This document shows positions 7,192 through 53,367 of a stretch of DNA of 64,000 nt, one piece after another. Each line of letters begins with the position of its first letter. The first letter of the stretch is position 1. The DNA is from Coleofasciculus sp. FACHB-T130 (GTDB lineage Bacteria > Cyanobacteriota > Cyanobacteriia > Cyanobacteriales > FACHB-T130), in assembly GCF_014695375.1 (NCBI RefSeq), contig NZ_JACJOG010000002.1:1-64000 (forward strand), given 5' to 3'. The position numbers and the translations under genes are program-made. The notes under the pieces are model-generated. The model saw nothing but the letters and a program-made list of their open reading frames with translations, had not been told where the DNA came from and did not search any database.

Positions 7192-7767
7192 TTAAAATGA
7201 CGACCCAGGCTGCTGAAGAAACTCTGCCTCCTGGGTCGTTGTCTCTCGACCGAGAATCTGATTGCGATGGGGAAATCGCCCAAAGCGTTCAATTACCTCG
7301 AAGTGTCGAACTGCGTAGGAAATGTAATCAATACAGTCAGGATCGTCGCCCAATTGCTGAAATAACTCCACTGACTGACGCTGATGTTCGAGATTTTCAC
7401 TATGTTCAAAAGGTAAATAAATAAAGCATCGCTGGACTGGCAGCAATTCTCGATCGAAGCCATTGGCAACTGCGTGCTGTGCCACAGACAGAGCAAGGCT
7501 ATCGGTAGCGAAGGCTTGGGCACTCCCGCGAAACAAATTGCGTGGAAATTGATCTAATAGCAGTATCAGTGCTAAACAGCTTTGGGGCGATTCCTTCCAG
7601 GGATTTAACTGACCCGCTGCGGCTAGTTCGTAGTCTCCTAAGAAGCGGGTTCGGATCTCCTCATCAAACTGCGGTTTTTTGGTAAACCAGACTTTACGGG
7701 GTTTCCCATAACCCGCCTCATCGGGTTTGCCAAACCAAAAATTCAAAATTTCATGGACTTGTGACAT
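7192..7767 (-). CDS. DUF924 family protein
   Basis: Starting at MSQVHEILNFWFG gives 191 residues, close to the usual DUF924 length. The upstream in-frame ATG at 7804-7806 would add 13 residues that do not resemble the family. Family features include LNFWFGKPDEAGYGKPRKVWF, LILLLDQFPRNLFRGSAQAF, LPVQRCFIYLPFEHSENLE and HFEVIERFGRFPHRNQILGR. The fold is predicted to be TPR-like all-alpha. Function is unknown; some annotations tentatively call it a transmembrane protein, but no membrane helix is visible here. An inverted repeat ACGACCCAGG/CCTGGGTCGT (7200-7209, 7230-7239) lies inside the last codons and may help end transcription from glgP. Confidence 0.88.
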   Translation of the reverse strand: MSQVHEILNFWFGKPDEAGYGKPRKVWFTKKPQFDEEIRTRFLGDYELAAAGQLNPWKESPQSCLALILLLDQFPRNLFRGSAQAFATDSLALSVAQHAVANGFDRELLPVQRCFIYLPFEHSENLEHQRQSVELFQQLGDDPDCIDYISYAVRHFEVIERFGRFPHRNQILGRETTTQEAEFLQQPGSSF

Positions 7768-7996
7768 GAGTTTTGGCTCCAACGCCCTCAATTTCGATCT
7801 CCCCAATCCTCCAATCTAATTCCCGCTTAAAAAAGGGGCTAAGGAGGGATCGGTTCCTGCACTGAGCCGGATTGTCAGCGCCCGGAAGCAGCGATTTGGT
7901 GATGCCGATGATAGCTAAAGATTGCATTTGGGCACCCTTGGAATAGAAGTGTTTAGCTGCGTCACTTTAACTTCCCGCTCACCCCCAGCCTGACTC

Positions 7997-10900
7997 ATGA
8001 ATTACACCGATAACCAAGAGTTGCTTCAACTGTTTATCCAGCAAGCGCCAGCAGCCGTTGCCATGTTCGACCGCAAGATGCGTTACCTGCTGTTCAGTCA
8101 TCGATGGCTGACGGAGCAAAATCTTGGTGAGGATATTATCGGGCGCTCTTACTATGAAATTGAGCGTGGAGTAGCAGACCGTTGGCAGGCAATTCATCAG
8201 CGTTGTTTAGCGGGAAGCATCGAGAAGGTTGAAGAATCTTTACCCCGTACTGATGGAACTGTGGAGTGGGTAAGGTGGGAAGTACAGCCGTGGCGCACTG
8301 GCACAGGTGAAATCGGCGGATTGATCGTGTCGAGAGATGCGATCGCCGAGCGCCATCCATCACAGGAACACCTACACCTGTTGGAGAAGGCGATCGCTGC
8401 TAGCAATAACGGCATCGTGATTAGCGACGCGAGCTTGCCAGACAATCCCTTGATTTATATCAATCCCAGTTTCCAGGAAATGACCGGGTACTCCGAGAGC
8501 GAAGTTTTAGGGCACAACTGCCGCTTCTTGCAAGGAATCGATACAGAGCAACCGGCGATCGCTCAATTGCGAACGGCAATCCGGGACGGAAAAGAGTGCA
8601 ATGTCACCTTGCGGAATTACCGCAAAGATGGGACGCTTTTCTGGAACGAACTGCGAGTTGCGCCAGTAAAGAATCCCCAAGGAAAACTCACAAACTTTGT
8701 GGGTGTCCAAACTGACATCACCGACCGAGTGGAAGCCCAAGAACATCTGATTCGGATTAGCAAAGCCGTTGAAAATGCGAGTGATGCCATCATCATTACG
8801 AACGCCAAAGGGCAGTCCCTCTATCACAATCCGGCGTTTGTGGAATTGTTTGAATACACCACAGACGAAATAAATGCGGCTGGGGGGCCAGCTATCCGCT
8901 ACTGCGATCCGAATGTCGCTCGTGAAGTCATCAGCACGATCAAACAAGGCAACTCCTGTTGGAGTGGTGAAGTCGAGATGCGTACTCGTAGCGATCGCAC
9001 TATATCGATTTTGCTTCGGGCTGATGCCATCGCCGATGACAATGGTAATGTAGTCGGGTTGATTGGGATTCACACCGACATTACCGCCCGCAAGCAGGCT
9101 GAAGCCGTTTTACGGCAGCTTCTGCGACGGGAGCAGCTCTTAGGAGCGATGCAAGAGCGTATCCGCCAATCCTTGAAGCTGGAGGATGTTCTCAACACTG
9201 CCGTGGAGGAAGTGCGGCAGTTTCTTCAGACAGACCGAACGATCTTGTACCGCTTTGAGCCGGATGGAAGTGGCACCGTCGTTGTAGAGTCCGTGAGTGC
9301 CCAGTGGTTGGCGGTGCTGGGAAGCAATATCAAAGATCCGTGCTTTGGCAAAACCTACGCTGCGGCTTATCAACAAGGTCGTATCCGTGTCATTGAAGAT
9401 ATCTACACGGCTCAGCTCAACCCCTGCCATATTGAATTGTTAGAGCAATTTCAGGTGCGAGCGAATCTAGTCGTACCGATTTTGCAAGGAGACCACTTGT
9501 GGGGGTTGCTAATTGCCCATCACTGTCGCTCGTCGCGGCAGTGGCAATATGAGGAAGTCGAACTGCTAGAGGCACTGAGCGTGCAAATCGCGATCGCCAT
9601 TCAACAAGCCGCTTTGTTCGAGCAAGTAGAAGCGGAACTAGCGCGATCGCAAGCCGCTCAGACTGCATTGCGCGATAGCGAGGAACGTCTGCGGACTGTG
9701 GTGAAAAGTGCGCCCATCGTTCTATTTGCCTTAGACGATCGGGGTGTCATTACCTTTTCCGAAGGGAGCGGTCTGGATACTTTGGGACTGGAAGCGGGTA
9801 AGGTGGTTGGTCAATCCATCTTTGAGGTGTACCGCCGCTTCCCACAGATTCTCGAAGAGGTTCGGCAAGCGCTATCCGGCAAAGCCTTAACATCCCTGGT
9901 AAAAATGGGCAAATTGACCTTCGAGGTTCGCTATTCGCCCCTGCGAAACGCCAACAACGAAGTCATGGGCGCAATTGGCGTCGCCACCGACATCACCGAA
10001 CGCATCCAAGTAGAGGAAACCCTCCGCCAAAGCGAAGTGTTGCGCCAAAGTGAAGCCAAAACTCGCGCCCTCCTCGACGCGATCCCAGATTCGATGTTTC
10101 GCATCCGTGAAGATGGCACCTTTCTAGACTTCAGAGCCGCTAAAAATGACGTTCGGGCGATCGCTCCCGCTCGAGTCATCGGTCAAACTGTGCAGGAGCT
10201 TTTGCCAACCGAGGTAGCGCAGCAAATGCTGCATTATGTAGCCAAAGCGCTGTCTGCTAACGAGATCCAAGTTTTTGAATATCAACTGCTCGCTCCCTTG
10301 AATCCCGCTTACCCAACCGGAGAGATAGGCTCTGTGCGCGATTATGAAGCTCGCGTTGTTGTCAACGGAGCGGATGAAGTGCTGGCAATCGTGCGCGATA
10401 TTACCGAGCGCAAGGAGATGGAGCGACTGAAAAACGAATTTGTCTCCATCGTCAGCCATGAATTGAGGACGCCGCTCACTTCGGTGCGAGGCTCCTTGAG
10501 TTTAATTGCTGGAGGTGTGACGGGTGAAATTCCCAATGAGGCAAAGGCGCTAGTGAATATTGCTTATAAAAATACCGAGCGTCTGATTCTCCTGATTAAC
10601 GACATTTTAGATATTGAAAAGATTGAATCCGGCAAAATGGATTTTCATCTCCAGCCGCTGGAACTAATGCCACTCGTAGAGCAGGCGCTGGAGGCGAACC
10701 GGGGCTATGGCGAACAGTTTGGGGTGCAGTTGGTACTGGAGTCTGAGTTGTCCGGTGTTCAGGTAAATGTCGATCGCGACCGCCTGATGCAGGTACTAAC
10801 GAATCTACTCTCCAACGCCGCCAAATTCTCTCCCCCCAATGGTACCGTCACCCTCTCCGTTTCCCGTCCAACTCAATCGCCAAATACCATCCGCGTTGCC

Positions 10901-11902
10901 GTTACCGACTGCGGTTGTGGGATTCCCGAAGACTTTCGCCCTCGGATTTTTCAGAAATTTGCTCAAGCAGATTCCTCAGATACCCGTCAAAAGGGAGGAA
11001 CTGGCTTAGGTTTAAGTATCTGCAAAGCGATCGTAGAAAAACTCGGAGGACACATTAGTTTTGAAACTCAAACGAATGTCGGGACGACTTTCTACTTCGA
11101 TTTACCAGAATGGCAAGAAGCACGGATCTCAAAGATTATGACTTCCCACTCGCCGGAAAGTCTCCCCATCCTTATCTGTGAAGACGATCCCGATATTGCC
11201 ACGCTGCTGTCGCTGATGCTGAAACAAGAAGGTTTAAGTGCAGATATCGCCTACAATGCAGCCCAAGCCAAGCAGCTTTTGTCAGAAAATTGCTATGCAG
11301 CGATGACTGTAGATTTGGCGCTACCCGGTCAAGATGGCATCTCTTTGATCCGCGAACTGCGGGAAGATGAAAATACTCAGAGTCTCCCGATTGTGGTCGT
11401 TTCTGCCAAAGCCCAACAGGGGCGCGAACAACTCAGTGGCGGTGGATTGCCGGTGATAGACTGGCTGGATAAACCAATAGATCAGGCGCGATTGATGGCA
11501 TCTGTCCGCCAAGCAGTTCGGCAGAACTCAGACAGTAAGCCTCATATTTTGTATGTTGAGGACGATCCGGATTTAACTCAGGTGGTCTCAACAATTTTGC
11601 AGAATATCGCCGAAATTGATTCAGCTAAAAATCTTCATGAGGCAAGACACAAGCTGTCTTCTAAAACTTTTGACTTAGTGATTCTTGACCTCAGTTTACC
11701 GGATGGTTCTGGTCTAGAATTGCTAGCGGATCTCAACAATCAGATTTTTTCCTCCATCCCCGCAGTCATTTTCTCCGCCAATACCGTTGGCATGGAGGCG
11801 GCACATCACGTAGCTGCGGCACTCGTCAAGTCCCGCACCTCCAATCAGCAGTTGCTGGAAACGATTAAATCCCTAATTGGACGCGGTAATTCCGCTTCTT
11901 AA
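7997..11902 (+). CDS. Hybrid histidine kinase with LOV and DXCF cyanobacteriochrome sensor domains
   Basis: A 1301-residue soluble sensor. Domains in order: PAS (about 5-115), LOV (125-245), PAS (250-370), GAF (385-545), PAS (565-680), PAS (690-805), HisKA with H821 in SHELRTPL, HATPase, then two receiver domains with D1106 and D1231. The second sensor has the full set of flavin-binding LOV residues: NCRFLQ with adduct Cys175, N207 in NYRKDG, N217 in FWN and Q238 in GVQ. The GAF domain has DPCF (Cys449) and CH (Cys477), 28 residues apart. This is the arrangement of DXCF cyanobacteriochromes such as TePixJ. Blue-light sensing through flavin is therefore well supported, and bilin binding is likely. 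Output probably passes through the following regulator and GGDEF genes. No membrane segment is visible. Confidence 0.9.
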   Translation: MNYTDNQELLQLFIQQAPAAVAMFDRKMRYLLFSHRWLTEQNLGEDIIGRSYYEIERGVADRWQAIHQRCLAGSIEKVEESLPRTDGTVEWVRWEVQPWRTGTGEIGGLIVSRDAIAERHPSQEHLHLLEKAIAASNNGIVISDASLPDNPLIYINPSFQEMTGYSESEVLGHNCRFLQGIDTEQPAIAQLRTAIRDGKECNVTLRNYRKDGTLFWNELRVAPVKNPQGKLTNFVGVQTDITDRVEAQEHLIRISKAVENASDAIIITNAKGQSLYHNPAFVELFEYTTDEINAAGGPAIRYCDPNVAREVISTIKQGNSCWSGEVEMRTRSDRTISILLRADAIADDNGNVVGLIGIHTDITARKQAEAVLRQLLRREQLLGAMQERIRQSLKLEDVLNTAVEEVRQFLQTDRTILYRFEPDGSGTVVVESVSAQWLAVLGSNIKDPCFGKTYAAAYQQGRIRVIEDIYTAQLNPCHIELLEQFQVRANLVVPILQGDHLWGLLIAHHCRSSRQWQYEEVELLEALSVQIAIAIQQAALFEQVEAELARSQAAQTALRDSEERLRTVVKSAPIVLFALDDRGVITFSEGSGLDTLGLEAGKVVGQSIFEVYRRFPQILEEVRQALSGKALTSLVKMGKLTFEVRYSPLRNANNEVMGAIGVATDITERIQVEETLRQSEVLRQSEAKTRALLDAIPDSMFRIREDGTFLDFRAAKNDVRAIAPARVIGQTVQELLPTEVAQQMLHYVAKALSANEIQVFEYQLLAPLNPAYPTGEIGSVRDYEARVVVNGADEVLAIVRDITERKEMERLKNEFVSIVSHELRTPLTSVRGSLSLIAGGVTGEIPNEAKALVNIAYKNTERLILLINDILDIEKIESGKMDFHLQPLELMPLVEQALEANRGYGEQFGVQLVLESELSGVQVNVDRDRLMQVLTNLLSNAAKFSPPNGTVTLSVSRPTQSPNTIRVAVTDCGCGIPEDFRPRIFQKFAQADSSDTRQKGGTGLGLSICKAIVEKLGGHISFETQTNVGTTFYFDLPEWQEARISKIMTSHSPESLPILICEDDPDIATLLSLMLKQEGLSADIAYNAAQAKQLLSENCYAAMTVDLALPGQDGISLIRELREDENTQSLPIVVVSAKAQQGREQLSGGGLPVIDWLDKPIDQARLMASVRQAVRQNSDSKPHILYVEDDPDLTQVVSTILQNIAEIDSAKNLHEARHKLSSKTFDLVILDLSLPDGSGLELLADLNNQIFSSIPAVIFSANTVGMEAAHHVAAALVKSRTSNQQLLETIKSLIGRGNSAS

Positions 11903-11911
11903 TTCTGTTTT

Positions 11912-11950
11912 TTTAAGTTTCAATAAATTAAACGTTTATTGAAACTTAAA
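11912..11950 (+). terminator. Hairpin after the hybrid kinase gene
   Basis: A perfect 16-bp inverted repeat with a 7-nt loop (TTAAACG) starts ten bases after the kinase stop codon and is followed by TTTAAT. It is AT-rich with a short T tract, so termination may be partial. Confidence 0.6.
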
Positions 11951-12203
11951 TTTAATGGAGTTTAAATAGTTGTTATTAAATTTTTAATTTATAAACTAAA
12001 AATCAAAATATTTAGTAGGATGACCGAATTAAACCATGTCATATTGTAAACTGGGGAGCCATTCCCATCCTGCTTGGTTCTCCGCGTTGAGAGGCGTGGA
12101 GTTTGAGGTAAGGAACTCAACATGGCAAGGGTAAGACGGGGAGTAAAAAGCGCTTTTCCGAGCTTACTAATAATTTAGTCTGACTACTTTCTGGAGATAG
12201 GGA
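11951..12203. other. Intergenic segment with possible structured RNA
   Basis: Most of this gap is AT-rich, but 12050-12165 is GC-richer and holds several short potential stems: GGGGAGCCA with TGGTTCTCC, GAGTT with AACTC, and GTAA...TTAC enclosing AAAGCGCTTT. I could not match it to a known riboswitch or cyanobacterial small RNA. No coding frame is supported here. Confidence 0.3.
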
Positions 12204-12350
12204 ATGAGTTCGTTATTCGTAGAGGGAATAACAATAAACCCTAAACTATCGCAATCCCAAATGAATTGTAGAATCTTCTCTTTTTTTATAGATATGCTTT
12301 TTCTTCCGACTCAGTTTAAATTAATGAGTAATCAATCAAAAGCAATATGA
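12204..12350 (+). CDS. Possible 48-residue leader ORF coupled to the response regulator
   Basis: An ATG frame of 48 codons starts 7 bases after GGAG (12193-12196). It ends at TGA 12348-12350, overlapping the response-regulator ATG by four bases (ATGA). This is the geometry of translational coupling. The peptide (MSSLFVEGITINPKLSQSQM and onwards) has no recognisable domain and an unremarkable composition. It may be a real small protein, a leader that tunes regulator translation, or a chance frame. Confidence 0.25.
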   Translation: MSSLFVEGITINPKLSQSQMNCRIFSFFIDMLFLPTQFKLMSNQSKAI

Positions 12351-12739
12351 CAACTCCATCTTTAACTCGTATCTTGTTGGTGGAAGATGATCCGGACATT
12401 CAGACCGTTGCCTGCTTGGGTTTGAAAGTAGTCGGCGGTTTCACGGTAGAAGTCTGTAGTTCTGGGAGCGAAGCGATTCAGAAAGCGCCGATATTTGCCC
12501 CAGATTTGATTTTGCTGGATGTGATGATGCCTGGGATGGATGGGATGACCACCCTAAAGGCACTGCGGGAACTCCCGCAAACTTTAAGCACTCCGGTAAT
12601 TTTCTTGACAGCCAAAGTGCAAACCCATGAAGTAGCTTATTATAAGCAACTTGGTGTATTGGATGTGATTGCGAAGCCGTTCGATCCCATGACCCTTTCT
12701 GCAACTCTCAATCGTATGTGGTTCCAGTACCATGATTGA
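12347..12739 (+). CDS. Single-domain response regulator
   Basis: A 130-residue CheY-like receiver and nothing else. The acidic pocket is VEDDPDIQ, the phosphoacceptor lies in [13 protein letters not shown], the conserved Thr/Ser is in VIFLTAK and the Lys-Pro switch is IAKPFDP. With no output domain, it should act through protein contact or as a phosphate relay. It overlaps the next gene by 8 bp and lies 444 bp after the hybrid kinase, so it is probably part of the same phosphorelay. The ATG is also the last codon overlap of a possible leader ORF. Confidence 0.93.
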
Positions 12740-14528
12740 TGCGCTTCAAGATCCGCAAGAACAACTCAATGCCCTACGCCTTGCCTATAGGCAACAACTG
12801 CCGAGTCGAATTGAGCAGATTGAAACAATTTGGAATCAGCTGCTGGGAAGCCTTGAGGAAAGAGGGACCGTAGCTGGGGAGTCAGGATGTAGGGGCGGGG
12901 AAACCCTGCCCGGAGCAGGAGAGAATCAAGAACATCAACCCCTCAGCACCTCAAAGGTTCAGCCCCTTTCGTCTTCTCAAAATCCGCCTCAGTCCCTGCT
13001 AGAAGCCGCTGCCTCACCTTTGGAAACGCTACACCACCTGATGCACCGTTTGGCGGGTTCTAGTGCCACGTTTGGGTTGCTGGGGTTAGGGAATGCGGCA
13101 CGAACCTTGGAACTGGTGTTCAAGGCGATTTTGGATAGTGGAAAGTTGCCAACCGCAGAAGAGCAAGCACAAATCTGCGTGCTGGTAGGAGGATTGAAAC
13201 AGGCGATCGCAGTGGAGGACACTTGTGTACTGGATCTAAACCTCCCCCCGTTGCAGTCTCAAGAGCCTTGGACAGAGAATCGGCTGATTTTTTTGGTGGA
13301 AGACGATCCGCATCTATCGCAGGATTTGGCGTTGCAAATCAGTTGTTTTGGTTATCAGGTTCGCACTTTTGACAAAATTGCTGAACTGGAGGAGGCGATC
13401 GCGCAAACACCACCTGCCGCTGCAATTGTAGATGTTGTTTTCCCCCAAGACAGTCTCGCTGGCCCCAAAACAATTACTGCCATCCAGCAGCACCGAGAGC
13501 AACCGCTGCCAGTTTTGTTTATTTCTGCCAGAAACGATCTCATGGCTCGTTTACAGGCGGTGAGAGCGGGTGGAAAGGCGTATTTTCCCAAGCCAATTAA
13601 TATTGGAGAATTGATTGATGCGCTGGATTTGCTGACAGTGCCGCAAGCACCAGAGCCGTATCGCATTTTAATTGTTGACGATGATGCGCCTTTGGCATCC
13701 TTCTATGGTTGGACTTTGGAACAGGCGGGAATGACGGCGCTGGTGGTGACAGATCCGTTGCAGGTGATGCCGCCGTTAATTGAGTTCAGACCGGATCTAA
13801 TTTTGATGGATATGTATATGCCGGGATGCGATGGAGTGGAACTGGCAGCGGTGATCCGTCAGCAACCGGCTTATGTGGGCATTCCGATTGTGTTTCTGTC
13901 GATGGAGACGGATCTGAATAAGCAGCTAGCGGCGATTCAGCTAGGCGGGGATGATTTTTTAACCAAGCCGATTCAGCCAAATCATCTGATTGCGTCGGTG
14001 ATGCCGCGAGTGCAGCGATCGCGTCTTTTACGTTCGGTGATGGTGCGCGATAGTCTGACTGGGCTGCTCAATCATACGACGATTAAAGAGCAACTCAGTA
14101 TTGAGGTGCAACGAGGTCGGCGGGAAAAGACGAACCTTGCCTTTGCCATGATTGATATTGATGATTTTAAGTCAGTCAACGATACTTATGGTCATCTCAC
14201 AGGCGATCGCGTACTGAAAAGTTTATCCCGTCTGTTACAGCAGCGTTTGCGAAAAACTGATATCACGGGTCGTTATGGCGGGGAAGAGTTTGCGGCTATC
14301 CTCCCGAATACAGATGGTGCAACAGCCGTGCAAGTTCTCAACCGAATCCGCGAAGGTTTTGCACAAGTTCGGCAGCAGTCTGACGGCGCTGAGTTTTCGG
14401 TTACTTTTAGCTGTGGCATCGCTGTCTTTCCCAACGTAGATGAAGCGACCCAACTCAATGAAGCCGCAGATAAAGCTCTCTATGAAGCCAAACGACGCGG
14501 ACGCAATCAGGTGGTTCTGTCTACGTGA
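12732..14528 (+). CDS. Hpt-REC-REC-GGDEF diguanylate cyclase
   Basis: A 598-residue response regulator. An N-terminal Hpt domain carries H105 in HRLAGSS. Receiver 1 (about 185-300) has LVEDDPH and AAIVDVVFP. Receiver 2 (about 308-425) has IVDDDAP and LILMDMYMPGCDG. A C-terminal GGDEF domain has GGEEF at 516-520, so the active-site loop is intact, and an inhibitory-site motif RKTD at 507-510. It should make cyclic di-GMP on phosphorylation and feed back at high product levels. The Hpt domain lets it accept phosphate from the two-receiver hybrid kinase upstream. Residues about 45-85 are a low-complexity insert in which the DNA contains a GC-rich hairpin. Confidence 0.93.
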   Translation: MIDALQDPQEQLNALRLAYRQQLPSRIEQIETIWNQLLGSLEERGTVAGESGCRGGETLPGAGENQEHQPLSTSKVQPLSSSQNPPQSLLEAAASPLETLHHLMHRLAGSSATFGLLGLGNAARTLELVFKAILDSGKLPTAEEQAQICVLVGGLKQAIAVEDTCVLDLNLPPLQSQEPWTENRLIFLVEDDPHLSQDLALQISCFGYQVRTFDKIAELEEAIAQTPPAAAIVDVVFPQDSLAGPKTITAIQQHREQPLPVLFISARNDLMARLQAVRAGGKAYFPKPINIGELIDALDLLTVPQAPEPYRILIVDDDAPLASFYGWTLEQAGMTALVVTDPLQVMPPLIEFRPDLILMDMYMPGCDGVELAAVIRQQPAYVGIPIVFLSMETDLNKQLAAIQLGGDDFLTKPIQPNHLIASVMPRVQRSRLLRSVMVRDSLTGLLNHTTIKEQLSIEVQRGRREKTNLAFAMIDIDDFKSVNDTYGHLTGDRVLKSLSRLLQQRLRKTDITGRYGGEEFAAILPNTDGATAVQVLNRIREGFAQVRQQSDGAEFSVTFSCGIAVFPNVDEATQLNEAADKALYEAKRRGRNQVVLST

Positions 14529-48444: not shown

Positions 48445-51400
48445 ATGAATGTCTTTGAGTTCGAGATTACCATCCAGAGCAAATCCGGCGATAGTAGCTG
48501 GCCTATTGTTGTCAGGTGTAAGCAACCGGATGGACTAACCATCCATTCAAAAGAGACTCTTGAGCTAAGTCAGGATGACTTTAACGAACTCACTCAACAG
48601 CAAGAAAACGAGAGGGAATACGGCACCCTACTAGGCAAAGCCCTGTTTCGAGGGGCTGTCTATGACACCTTTGTTCGTGCCCTATCCAAGAGCAGTCAGG
48701 ACTGTCGCCTGCGAATTTTGCTATCGATTGAAGCGGCTGACAACGACGAAGTGAAGACCTTGCATTGGGAAAGGCTGTGTGCTCCGATTGATGCCGACGA
48801 GGATTGGGATCTTTTAGCCCGCGACCAGCGCGTTCCCTTTTCCCTGTACATTCCCACTGTTATCGATCGCCGCTTTCCCCCGATTGGGCGGCGGGACTTG
48901 CGGGCACTGGTGCTGGTAGCGAGTCCCTCTAATATCGGTAAGTTTCAATTAGCACCTTTTGACGTTGAAGCTGTCTTATCTGGAGTCAAGGAAGCGCTTG
49001 GTGATATTCCTTACGAAATTTTGGCAAATGATGTTGCAGGTGCTATCGGACCCCCAACGCTACAAGAACTGTCTAAGCAACTGACTAACTCTAAGAAGCC
49101 ATACACCTTGCTGCACTTTGTCGCCCACGGCAAGCTGATGGATAACGGAGAAACTGTTCTGTACTGGGCAAAAGCCGATAACCAAGTTCAGCCAGTGACT
49201 GGGGAAGAATTACTCTCAGAGTTGAAGAATATCGGTAATCATCAGAGGAGCTTACCTCACTTTGCCTTTCTCTGCACTTGCGAAAGTGCCGACCCCAGAG
49301 CAGAAGCAGGATTAGGGGGATTAGGTCAGCGATTGGTCAGAAATTTGGGGATGCCTGCTGTAGTAGCGATGACTCGCAAGGTGAGCGTAGAGACAGGCTT
49401 GGCTCTAGGACAGAGCTTTTATCGACGACTTAGAGAGTCCGGAGAGGTAGATACGGCGCTACAAGAGGCAACAGCCGGACTGGGAAAACGCCACGATATT
49501 GCTGTCCCAGCTCTGTTTAGCCGCTTGGGTGGGCGTCCCTTATTTAGCGATCGCCTTGACGATCGGGATTTAACTGACGAGGAAATCGACTATGGTATTG
49601 GCAAGCTGAGCCAACTCCTTCAAGAACGCGCCCCTCATGCCTCCGTACTCAAGGAGAGCTTTAAAAGGCAGGTAGAGACGCTCAACGGTACCAAAGGAGC
49701 CGAGTCACGCATAGCGAGTGAACAGCGCCAGCAGGCAATAGTAGAGATCGATAACCTGTGCGATCAAGTCCTGGAAATTAGCTTTGATGCTCTGGCAGCT
49801 TTAGGCAAAGAACCACCAGAATACAAGGCTGAGTGTCCTTTTCCGGGTCTATCTTCCTTTGCTGAGGAACAATACCATAAGTTCTTTTTTGGGCGCGATG
49901 AGCTGATTAGAGACTTACAAAAGGAACTGGCGAAGGATAATTTCTTAGCGGTTATCGGTGCTTCGGGCAGCGGCAAGTCATCAGTGGTACTAGCTGGACT
50001 GATTCCTAAGCTTAAACAGGAGCCAAGCCTACAGTCGGTTCGCATCACACCAAGCAACGAGCCGCTCAAACAATTAGAAATACTGTTAAAGGTATCCCAA
50101 CAGCATTCGGTACTGGTGGTAGACCAATTTGAGGAACTGTTCACCCTCTGCGAGGATAAAGCCAATCGCCAAGAATTTATCGACAAGTTGTTACACCTTG
50201 CCTCCCGGCGGAAAGTTGTGATTACGATGCGGGCGGACTTTTTAGGAGAGTGTACCTTCTACCCCGAACTGAGAAAGCGGATTGAAACCCGACAAAAATT
50301 GGTTGGACCGATGGAACCTGCCGAACTAATTACAGCGATGAAGATGCAGGCAGATAGGGGAGGGTTGCGCTTTGAAACTGGCTTGAGCCACTCGATTCTC
50401 AATGATGTGCAAGGAGAGCCTGGGGCAATGCCACTGCTGCAATATGCGTTGCAGGAACTGTGGAAGCGGCGGCGGGGGCGCTGGATGTGCGATGAGGAGT
50501 ACCAATCTATCGGTAGAGTTCACCAGGCGATCGCTAAAACTGCTGATGATTTTTACAATAGCCTCCCAGCTAAGCAACAAGAGCAAGTCCAGAATATTTT
50601 CTTGCGCTTAACTCGCTTGGATAAGAATGCCATCCAGGGAGAGAAGCGACGGGACACCCGCCAGCGAGTGGAACTAGAGGATTTGGTGCCGAGTGGGAGC
50701 AATCTGGCCCAGACGAAGAAGTTGGTACAGCAGCTAGCTGGTGAAGGGGTACGGCTAGTCGTCACCAGTCGGAACCAAACTACCGGGAAGGAAGAAGTAG
50801 AAGTCGCCCATGAAGCTTTAATCCGCTATTGGCCAACATTGAAGGAGTGGTTGAGCCAGAACCGCAGCGATTTGCAACTCCGAGAAACGATATGTCAGGC
50901 GGCAGAAGATTGGCACCAGCACCAAAAGCAACCAGACCAAGACAGCTATTTAATCCATCAGGGCGGAAGATTAGAAGATGCACAAGTGCTGTTGAAACAG
51001 CCCAAATTTGTGCATCTCAACCAAGAAGAAGCTGAATATGTCTTGGCTTGTTTGGAGCGGCGCGATCGCATCCGCAGGCAAGAAAAACAACGCAGACATC
51101 GCCTGCTTTTCGCCGCTGTCAGCTCAGCTTTTGTCTTTGCTGGATTTGCTATCTTTGCTGCATATCAGTGGCGGCAAGCAGACAGTGCGACGCAGGAAGC
51201 AAAAAATGCGAAGCAGCAAACAGAAAGTGCGAAGCAGCAAACAGAAATCGAGCGAATTCAGGCGTTAAGTACTTCCTCAGAAGCTCAGTTAGCAACAAAT
51301 CAATTAGAAACATTGATCGGAAGTTTACAAGCTGCCAAAGGAGTTAAGAAACTGGGGCTGTCACAAACAACCTTAACGAATAAAGTCTTAACGAATAAAG

Positions 51401-53367
51401 TAATAGGCAGCCTGCAAAAAGTAACTTCTGAAGTCAGAGAACGCAATCGCTTAGAAGGACATACAGACTCAGTTATAGATGTCAGTTTTAGCCCAAATGG
51501 TCAAATGCTGGCGAGTACTGGAGATGATGGCACAGTTCGTTTGTCAGATTTACATGGCAATGAACTCTTTAAAAGTGAAGTTAGTAAAGAGCGAGTTAGA
51601 AGTGTCAAGTTTAGTCCTAAGGGTCAGATACTGGCAACTGGTGCTGAGGATGGGATTATAAAATTGTGGGATTTTAACGGAAAACTATTGACGAACTTTT
51701 CTAAGACGAAATTTCCTAAGCAGAAGAAGGGGGTATATAACATCACTTTCAGCCCTGATGGTAAGAAGATCGCTGCTGGTTCTGGGGATGGCATCGTTCT
51801 CTTATGGAGTTTGGAGGGAAATTCTTTGATTACATTTCCCGCTCATAATACTAATAGTAAAGTGTGGGGTATCAGTTTCAGTCCTGATGGTGAGAAGATC
51901 GCTACTAGTTCTGGAGATGGCACTGCCAAGTTGTGGGATTTGAACGGAACACTATTAAAGGAATTTAAAGGGCATAAAAATACGGTGTTTAGTGTCAATT
52001 TTAGTCCTGATGGTCAAAAACTTGCCACTGCCGCTATGGATGGTACTGCCAAGTTGTGGGATTTGAACGGAAAGGATTTGAAAGGAAAAGAGTTGAGAGC
52101 ATTGTCAGGACATGAAGACTGGGTGTTTAGCGTCATTTTCAGTCCCGATGGCAAGCATCTCGCCACTGGTTCCAAGGACGGTGTTGTTCGCTACTGGGGT
52201 TTGAATGGAAAACTCTTGAAAGAATTTAAAGGGCATAAAAACTCAGTTAGAAGTGTTGTTTTCCGCCCAGATGGAAAGCTTTTAGCTACGGCTGGATACG
52301 ACAACACTGTACGCTTGTGGGATTTGCAAGACCACCAGCAGTCCACTGATCTCAAAGGGCACGAAGGCACAGTCTGGAGCGTCAGTTTTAGCCCGGATGA
52401 CGAAATCTTAGCGACTGCTGGAGCTGATGGCACTGTCCGCCTGTGGGATTATTTATCAGGCGAGCAGTTAGGGGAATTTAAAGGTCATAAAGGTGTAATT
52501 TGGAAGGTTACTTTTAGCCCGAAGGGCAAACTTTTAGCTACATCAGGAGAGGATAAGACCGCCCGCTTGTGGAGTGTATTTGGTAAGGAACGGAGACAAT
52601 TCCAAGGCCATGAAGATGAAGTCTTAGGTTTGAACTTTAGCCCGGATGGTAAGTTTTTAGCAACCTCAGGAAAGGATGACACCGCCCGTTTGTGGGATTT
52701 GTCTGTTAAAAAAGAACTGCGAAAATTCAAAGGTCATATAGGTGACGTCCTAAGTGTCAGTTTTAGCCCGAAGGGCAAACTTTTAGCTACCGCAGGAAAG
52801 GATGGCATGGTACTAGCTACCGCAGGAGTGGATGGCATGGTTCGCTTGTGGAATTCATCAGGTCAGGAGATAGAAAAATTCCAAGCGCATCCAGAACCTA
52901 TCACTAGCGTCATTTGGAGTAATGACGGACAAAAACTGGCTACAGGTAGTGGCGATGGCACTATTCGTTTGTGGGATTTGTCTGGTAAACAATTAAAGGA
53001 ATTCAAAGGTCATATAGGTCCAGTACAGAAACTCCGTTGGAGTAAGGATGATAAGCTGCTAGCGACTGCTGGATCTGACTCAACCGCTCGTCTATGGGAT
53101 GTATCCGGTCCACAGGTAGCCGTATTCAAAGGTCATAAAGGGGAGGTCAAGAGTATCGATTTTAGTCTCGATGGCAAGCTTCTAGCTACGAGTGGTCAAG
53201 ATGGAACGGTTAAGTTGTGGCGAATTGAAGGATTAGATGAGCTGATGGTGCGGGGTTGCGCTTGGGTACACGACTATCTCAATAATCAAGATTCCAAACT
53301 TACGCTTAAAGAACGTCAGGTTTGTCATGGTATTAGCTCTGCTAATAATCCACCTAAACCTAACTGA
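48445..53367 (+). CDS. CHAT-STAND NTPase-WD40 protein
   Basis: 1640 residues. A beta-rich N-terminal domain is followed by a CHAT caspase-like protease domain with H228 (FVAHGK) and C279 (TCESAD). A STAND-type NTPase follows, with a P-loop at 505-512 (GASGSGKS, K511) and Walker B D560 in VLVVDQFEEL. Next come a likely winged-helix region, a single transmembrane helix at about 887-909, a helical linker (QQTESAKQQTEIER), and 14 WD40 blades from about 1003 to 1594, enough for two seven-bladed propellers. Such proteins sense a signal through WD40, oligomerise with NTP and trigger the protease. A conflict or cell-death role is inferred. Repeat 11 holds a 30-bp tandem duplication. It is convergent to the peptidase gene. 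Confidence 0.95.
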   Translation: MNVFEFEITIQSKSGDSSWPIVVRCKQPDGLTIHSKETLELSQDDFNELTQQQENEREYGTLLGKALFRGAVYDTFVRALSKSSQDCRLRILLSIEAADNDEVKTLHWERLCAPIDADEDWDLLARDQRVPFSLYIPTVIDRRFPPIGRRDLRALVLVASPSNIGKFQLAPFDVEAVLSGVKEALGDIPYEILANDVAGAIGPPTLQELSKQLTNSKKPYTLLHFVAHGKLMDNGETVLYWAKADNQVQPVTGEELLSELKNIGNHQRSLPHFAFLCTCESADPRAEAGLGGLGQRLVRNLGMPAVVAMTRKVSVETGLALGQSFYRRLRESGEVDTALQEATAGLGKRHDIAVPALFSRLGGRPLFSDRLDDRDLTDEEIDYGIGKLSQLLQERAPHASVLKESFKRQVETLNGTKGAESRIASEQRQQAIVEIDNLCDQVLEISFDALAALGKEPPEYKAECPFPGLSSFAEEQYHKFFFGRDELIRDLQKELAKDNFLAVIGASGSGKSSVVLAGLIPKLKQEPSLQSVRITPSNEPLKQLEILLKVSQQHSVLVVDQFEELFTLCEDKANRQEFIDKLLHLASRRKVVITMRADFLGECTFYPELRKRIETRQKLVGPMEPAELITAMKMQADRGGLRFETGLSHSILNDVQGEPGAMPLLQYALQELWKRRRGRWMCDEEYQSIGRVHQAIAKTADDFYNSLPAKQQEQVQNIFLRLTRLDKNAIQGEKRRDTRQRVELEDLVPSGSNLAQTKKLVQQLAGEGVRLVVTSRNQTTGKEEVEVAHEALIRYWPTLKEWLSQNRSDLQLRETICQAAEDWHQHQKQPDQDSYLIHQGGRLEDAQVLLKQPKFVHLNQEEAEYVLACLERRDRIRRQEKQRRHRLLFAAVSSAFVFAGFAIFAAYQWRQADSATQEAKNAKQQTESAKQQTEIERIQALSTSSEAQLATNQLETLIGSLQAAKGVKKLGLSQTTLTNKVLTNKVIGSLQKVTSEVRERNRLEGHTDSVIDVSFSPNGQMLASTGDDGTVRLSDLHGNELFKSEVSKERVRSVKFSPKGQILATGAEDGIIKLWDFNGKLLTNFSKTKFPKQKKGVYNITFSPDGKKIAAGSGDGIVLLWSLEGNSLITFPAHNTNSKVWGISFSPDGEKIATSSGDGTAKLWDLNGTLLKEFKGHKNTVFSVNFSPDGQKLATAAMDGTAKLWDLNGKDLKGKELRALSGHEDWVFSVIFSPDGKHLATGSKDGVVRYWGLNGKLLKEFKGHKNSVRSVVFRPDGKLLATAGYDNTVRLWDLQDHQQSTDLKGHEGTVWSVSFSPDDEILATAGADGTVRLWDYLSGEQLGEFKGHKGVIWKVTFSPKGKLLATSGEDKTARLWSVFGKERRQFQGHEDEVLGLNFSPDGKFLATSGKDDTARLWDLSVKKELRKFKGHIGDVLSVSFSPKGKLLATAGKDGMVLATAGVDGMVRLWNSSGQEIEKFQAHPEPITSVIWSNDGQKLATGSGDGTIRLWDLSGKQLKEFKGHIGPVQKLRWSKDDKLLATAGSDSTARLWDVSGPQVAVFKGHKGEVKSIDFSLDGKLLATSGQDGTVKLWRIEGLDELMVRGCAWVHDYLNNQDSKLTLKERQVCHGISSANNPPKPN

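Follow-up and report, generated by a model that had tools for sequence, protein, structure and literature searches.

The 64,000-nucleotide stretch of Coleofasciculus sp. FACHB-T130 DNA analysed here (the window) encodes one hybrid histidine kinase in which two complete photosensor sequences, a LOV domain and a DXCF-type cyanobacteriochrome (CBCR) GAF domain, are joined to a kinase core and two receivers. This arrangement had been predicted from the sequence, and both Pfam matches and residue checks bear it out. We consider it probable, with clear room for doubt, that the protein is a dual-photosensor kinase in which a LOV blue-light input is gated by a blue-absorbing CBCR and passed by phosphorelay to cyclic di-GMP (c-di-GMP). 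The kinase gene and its neighbours are laid out as follows.

7192-7806, minus strand: DUF924 protein, upstream of the kinase and divergent from it
7997-11902, plus strand: hybrid histidine kinase, 1301 aa, PAS-LOV-PAS-CBCR-PAS-PAS-HisKA-HATPase-REC-REC
7997-8350, plus strand: N-terminal PAS, aa 1-118, for which no chromophore is predicted
8375-8725, plus strand: LOV domain, aa 127-243
8519-8521, plus strand: C175 in NCRFLQ, predicted flavin-adduct cysteine (residue check)
8747-9085, plus strand: PAS between LOV and CBCR, aa 251-363
9137-9631, plus strand: DXCF-type cyanobacteriochrome GAF domain, aa 381-545
9341-9343, plus strand: C449, second cysteine, in DPCF (residue check)
9425-9427, plus strand: C477, canonical predicted bilin-attachment cysteine, in CH (residue check)
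9704-10396, plus strand: two more PAS domains, aa 570-800
10430-11110, plus strand: HisKA (H821) and HATPase_c kinase core, aa 812-1038
11168-11866, plus strand: two receiver domains, with D1106 in TVDLALP and D1231 in ILDLSLP
12347-12739, plus strand: CheY-like single-domain response regulator, overlapping the next gene by 8 nt
12732-14528, plus strand: Hpt(H105)-REC-REC-GGDEF diguanylate cyclase

The kinase reading frame begins with ATG and contains no internal stops, and its Pfam matches comprise five PAS folds, one GAF, HisKA, HATPase_c and two receivers. H821 lies within SHELRTP, the N, G1, F and G2 boxes are all there and both receivers have their phospho-Asp, so that the H-box of HisKA, the N/G boxes of the HATPase and the receiver aspartates of a hybrid histidine kinase are all present. 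Compared with the orthologue in the related genome G001 (93-94% identical), dN/dS is about 0.14 for the LOV domain, about 0.16 for the CBCR and about 0.1 or below for the receivers and the first PAS; within the sensor part, purifying selection is strongest on this N-terminal PAS (aa 1-118). Judged by these ratios, the gene evolves under purifying selection. A chance origin of the two-sensor layout is excluded.

The flavin residues of the LOV domain are exactly those predicted: NCRFLQ occupies positions 174-179, with C175 as the adduct cysteine, and N207, N217 and Q238 provide the flavin contacts that complete the sequence signature of a LOV photoreceptor. Searched against the PDB, the region best matches LOV photoreceptors (E 2e-39). 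Across 30 LOV+CBCR proteins, N207 is conserved in all 30 and N217 and Q238 in 29 each, none of these residues having been a selection criterion. In an AlphaFold model of the LOV-PAS-CBCR segment (aa 120-560, 24-row alignment, mean pLDDT 84, GAF mostly above 90), the LOV-PAS part matches Brucella LOV-PAS (6pps/6ph4); superpositions of the whole chain gave large rmsd. With LOV histidine kinases such as Brucella LOV-HK and the cyanobacterial LOV kinases, the window protein shares the full set of flavin residues followed by PAS and kinase, but it adds a bilin-type CBCR, further PAS domains and two receivers.

The original prediction assigned the GAF domain to the TePixJ type from DPCF at 447-450, CH at 477-478 and the 28 residues between C449 and C477. 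The positions and the count are exact, and the PDB sequence of TePixJ shows identical spacing between its DPCF and CH; as an argument for TePixJ, however, the spacing is weak and not diagnostic by itself, because CBCRs lacking the cysteine have it too, with the Cys-less miRFP670nano and PPHK domains aligning gap-free to the window GAF across this stretch. What is diagnostic is the second cysteine itself, in the same D447-P-C449-F450 motif as in TePixJ and accompanied by C477-H478, together with the absence of the WXDXXL tryptophan: the corresponding residues read I-K-D-P-C-F, with Ile replacing Trp and Phe replacing Leu. DXCF domains show several photocycles. The DXCF type is defined by the second cysteine and the XRG type by WXDXXL, and typical DXCF domains convert phycocyanobilin (PCB) to phycoviolobilin and have a blue/green photocycle (Hoshino et al. 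2024, PMC11284453). By these definitions the second cysteine and the Ile at the Trp site make the window GAF DXCF-type, and by analogy a blue/green photocycle would be likeliest. The equivalent of C449, also not a selection criterion, is kept in 27 of the 30 LOV+CBCR proteins.

In PDB searches the GAF domain best matched bilin-binding CBCRs (E 2e-52), with PPHK at the head (181 bits), then the NpR3784-derived miRFP670nano and others, and TePixJ at 115 bits. Its best hits being Cys-less, the possibility of an XRG domain with a re-acquired cysteine was considered; it was rejected on the missing WXDXXL tryptophan and the position of the domain among DXCF members in the tree. Structure modelling, proposed earlier as a check, gave a CBCR-type GAF fold (Z 24.8 and rmsd 2.1 over 149 residues against TePixJ, 4glq) that also matches miRFP670nano (Z 26.5) and PPHK (Z 25), and there is no PHY among the Pfam matches. 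With TePixJ-type DXCF CBCRs (PMC11284453) the domain shares D-X-C-F, the canonical Cys-His, the spacing, the fold and the lack of the WXDXXL Trp. TePixJ itself is chemotaxis-type, whereas the window GAF, 38-40% identical to it, comes with an added LOV and kinase. The dual-sensor histidine kinase PPHK (6oap), whose GAF is the closest solved sequence (48% identity) and among the closest structures, likewise places several sensors on one kinase spine, but that GAF lacks the DXCF cysteine (DQYF). The window genome has one heme oxygenase and one ferredoxin-dependent bilin reductase, and a supply of PCB is therefore plausible.

The Hpt-bearing diguanylate cyclase said to lie near the kinase is present, and because this neighbourhood is conserved in other genomes, the link to c-di-GMP is strengthened. 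The GGDEF protein (12732-14528) has a GGEEF active site at 516 and an RxxD I-site, RKTD, at 507, as in cyclases. The order kinase, response regulator, Hpt/REC/REC/GGDEF protein recurs in G001, G004 (twice), G002, G005, G008 and G018, and G009 has the kinase and the GGDEF gene. The DUF924 gene also adjoins the cluster, divergent to the kinase, in G001, G002, G004:C58 and G005; we know of no role for DUF924 in light responses or c-di-GMP signalling. Between kinase and regulator lies a gap of 444 nt (11903-12346) in which we found no terminator and one promoter-like match, below the number expected by chance. With this gap, which counts against our main reading, co-transcription of the window kinase with the regulator is putative.

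Sensor content varies among the cluster kinases. The LOV-PAS-CBCR order is found in the window, G001 and G004:C22, and the kinase of G008 is LOV-CBCR with both cysteines intact. In G002, G004:C58 and G005 the LOV is followed directly by a CBCR-type GAF in which both cysteines are lost, the middle PAS being absent, and the kinases of G018 and G009 have neither LOV nor CBCR. Every LOV found in the cluster retains the equivalent of C175, and these LOV domains group together (SH-aLRT 87). Since the LOV is usually kept and the CBCR cysteines are lost in three genomes, the LOV is the steadier of the two light inputs, and the CBCR is an addition that can be dispensed with. Going by the three relatives with a Cys-less CBCR and the two with neither sensor, the CBCR is inessential to the cluster, which again counts against the main reading. 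The lost cysteine sites (L218, L219 and L220, the cluster in G004, G002 and G005) read ENY and QPH or QAH. Trichocoleus sp. FACHB-40 (L057) has a LOV and a GAF identical to the ones in the G005 kinase.

Rarity of the pairing of LOV with a DXCF-type CBCR is not supported, and the window kinase is not unique: three more proteins in the same genome and about 23 elsewhere have it. We searched 60 relatives and then 386 and 291 genomes, with loci followed up; best matches only were used, so the counts are lower bounds. At least 27 distinct genes, in about 21 genomes, combine a LOV with its cysteine kept and a CBCR with both cysteines. They occur in the window's own family, in at least six others (f4, f14, f20, f21, f26 and f44) and in two records that bear names, those of a Microcoleus vaginatus MAG and of Trichocoleus sp. 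FACHB-40. Four such genes are in the window genome: the window kinase and those on C38 (825 aa), C17 (1214 aa) and C37 (2162 aa). This genome has nine LOV-type domains with the cysteine, and five of the nine proteins also have a CBCR-type GAF with the bilin cysteine; in one of the five, on C23, the LOV motif deviates (NCFFLQ) and the GAF is interrupted. CBCR-like GAF domains number in the dozens in this genome. In the open-licence full texts searched, we found no description of LOV plus CBCR in one chain, and these double sensors apparently form a recurrent, little described class.

Nostocaceae LOV-PAS-GAF proteins (L031-L056, L138, L139, L141 and L152) look alike but have a GAF without the bilin cysteine and were left out of the counts. 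The idea that relatives without LOV were artefacts of locus ends was also discarded: when 18 longer loci were refetched, a LOV with the cysteine appeared only in L206, where it was already known. In the three other paired proteins of the window genome (L111, G000:C38; L112, G000:C37; L115, G000:C17), the middle PAS domains and kinase ends differ from those of the window kinase. Another protein on C38 (L117, G000:C38:193500-201500; 1808 aa) has six CBCR domains in tandem, five of them Cys-containing and DTYF-type, the sixth with DTCL. In L187, L189, L179 and L175, single CBCR cysteines have been lost sporadically (QPH, QAH, DNFF) or the bilin site is gone, which suggests frequent decay or retuning.

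The proposed phylogenetic check was carried out, and LOV-linked CBCRs do not form one clade. On a tree of 95 CBCR domains, LOV linkage needs 11 gains or losses, at least six of them forced by well-supported branches. With the distant f44 group left out, a single clade is still rejected (AU test, p about 6e-70). The pairing therefore arose or was lost several times; as read from the tree, it has been made or broken repeatedly, gains and losses not being separable. On the tree, the window CBCR falls together with the orthologous domains of G001 and G004.

Evidence on coupling between the sensors comes from the linker ahead of the CBCR. In LOV+CBCR proteins with both motifs recognised, the only ones measured, the helix running from DIT in the preceding domain to IRQSL in the CBCR is exactly 28 residues long (four heptads), whether a PAS or a LOV precedes. 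The same length may hold for PAS-GAF chains of cyanobacteria in general. Coiled-coil coupling of consecutive sensors is described for photoreceptor kinases (PMC6798134). Over 30 proteins, CBCR distances rise with LOV distances (Spearman 0.48; none of 2000 permutations as high), a correlation that is partly expected through shared ancestry. Distances from the LOV cysteine to the CBCR cysteine cluster at 273/280 and 274/281, 7 apart, the distant lineage f44 included; with loop indels and related lineages in play, this spacing was set aside as heptad evidence and the linker length was used instead.

Domain order, diagnostic residues, the conserved cluster, the PCB-pathway genes and the linker register are read directly from sequence. 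From there we infer the chromophores, the colours, the sign of the effect, the phosphotransfer and the behaviour controlled. The LOV domain would bind flavin and, in blue light, form a cysteinyl adduct with C175. The CBCR would bind phycocyanobilin at C477, possibly isomerised to phycoviolobilin; C449 would add to C10 to give a blue-absorbing dark state, which blue light would convert to a longer-wave, probably green-absorbing, state. Acting in series on one kinase core through helical coiled-coil linkers of fixed register, the LOV would report blue intensity and the CBCR would gate it by colour. Phosphate would pass from H821 by way of the receivers and the Hpt and reach the neighbouring GGDEF protein at its own receivers, and the resulting c-di-GMP level would probably set the attached-versus-moving state.

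An unlikely alternative, though the strongest of the three we weighed, is that LOV alone drives the kinase and the CBCR binds bilin as a passenger with little effect on output. The cluster LOV is intact wherever it occurs, and the loss of both CBCR cysteines in G002, G004:C58 and G005 fits this view; against it, both are retained over three genomes of the window lineage, the CBCR has a dN/dS of 0.16 and the linker register is preserved. The reverse, in which light enters mainly through the CBCR and the LOV serves in practice as a PAS with a redox or structural role, seems very improbable. Altered LOV motifs do occur beside intact or near-intact CBCRs (L137, without the Cys motif, and the NCFFLQ protein on C23), but the window LOV has all its flavin residues, and of the cluster's sensors LOV is kept best.

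We also give little credence to an origin by ordinary shuffling among the PAS/GAF kinases that crowd this genome, with no selected integration and no specific wiring of the kinase to the neighbouring cyclase. The abundance of CBCR-like GAFs and of LOV-type domains with the cysteine would favour it, as would the 11 changes of the LOV label on the CBCR tree; yet five of nine LOV proteins also have a CBCR-type GAF with the bilin cysteine, cluster and pairing are conserved, and the linker length is invariant. Cross-talk with the many other PAS/GAF kinases of the genome could nonetheless occur, and counts against the main reading. Building on the dual-photosensor kinase that we prefer, LOV and DXCF-CBCR may have been joined independently and repeatedly in cyanobacteria because the pair computes what neither sensor can by itself, blue intensity gated by the blue/green ratio, with the CBCR serving as a filter that can be removed from a c-di-GMP phosphorelay driven by LOV; this extension is tentative, and we hold it to be somewhat doubtful.

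The nearest published idea to a LOV+CBCR chain is that of the algal and fern neochromes and dualchrome, in which a single chain combines flavin and bilin photoreceptors; in neochrome, which arose more than once, a phytochrome is joined to a phototropin-type LOV part (PMC12558739, PMC11879098). Unlike the window kinase these proteins are eukaryotic, have a phytochrome instead of a CBCR and a Ser/Thr kinase or cryptochrome, and sense red/far-red or orange/far-red plus blue. If our reading is true, the window kinase would be a bacterial counterpart of neochrome, viewing one spectral region through two chemistries, that of a flavin adduct which reverts in the dark and that of a bilin which is photoreversible. 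Control of c-di-GMP by colour is known from the CBCRs SesA, SesB and SesC of Thermosynechococcus (PMC5871770), and in Synechococcus elongatus the turnover of c-di-GMP is under the control of a LOV-GGDEF-EAL protein (PMC5812497). The Ses proteins make or degrade c-di-GMP themselves, whereas in the window a kinase and a putative phosphorelay would stand between, with LOV added. With LOV-PAS-CBCR, LOV-CBCR, LOV plus a dead CBCR, or neither in one and the same cluster, these kinases offer a natural matched set for tests of sensor integration, and the constant length of the helix ahead of the CBCR, 28 residues, might serve as a design rule in building two-input optogenetic kinases. Elsewhere in the window, 48445-53367 encodes an nSTAND1 NTPase of 1640 aa whose C-terminal part is a long WD40 array.
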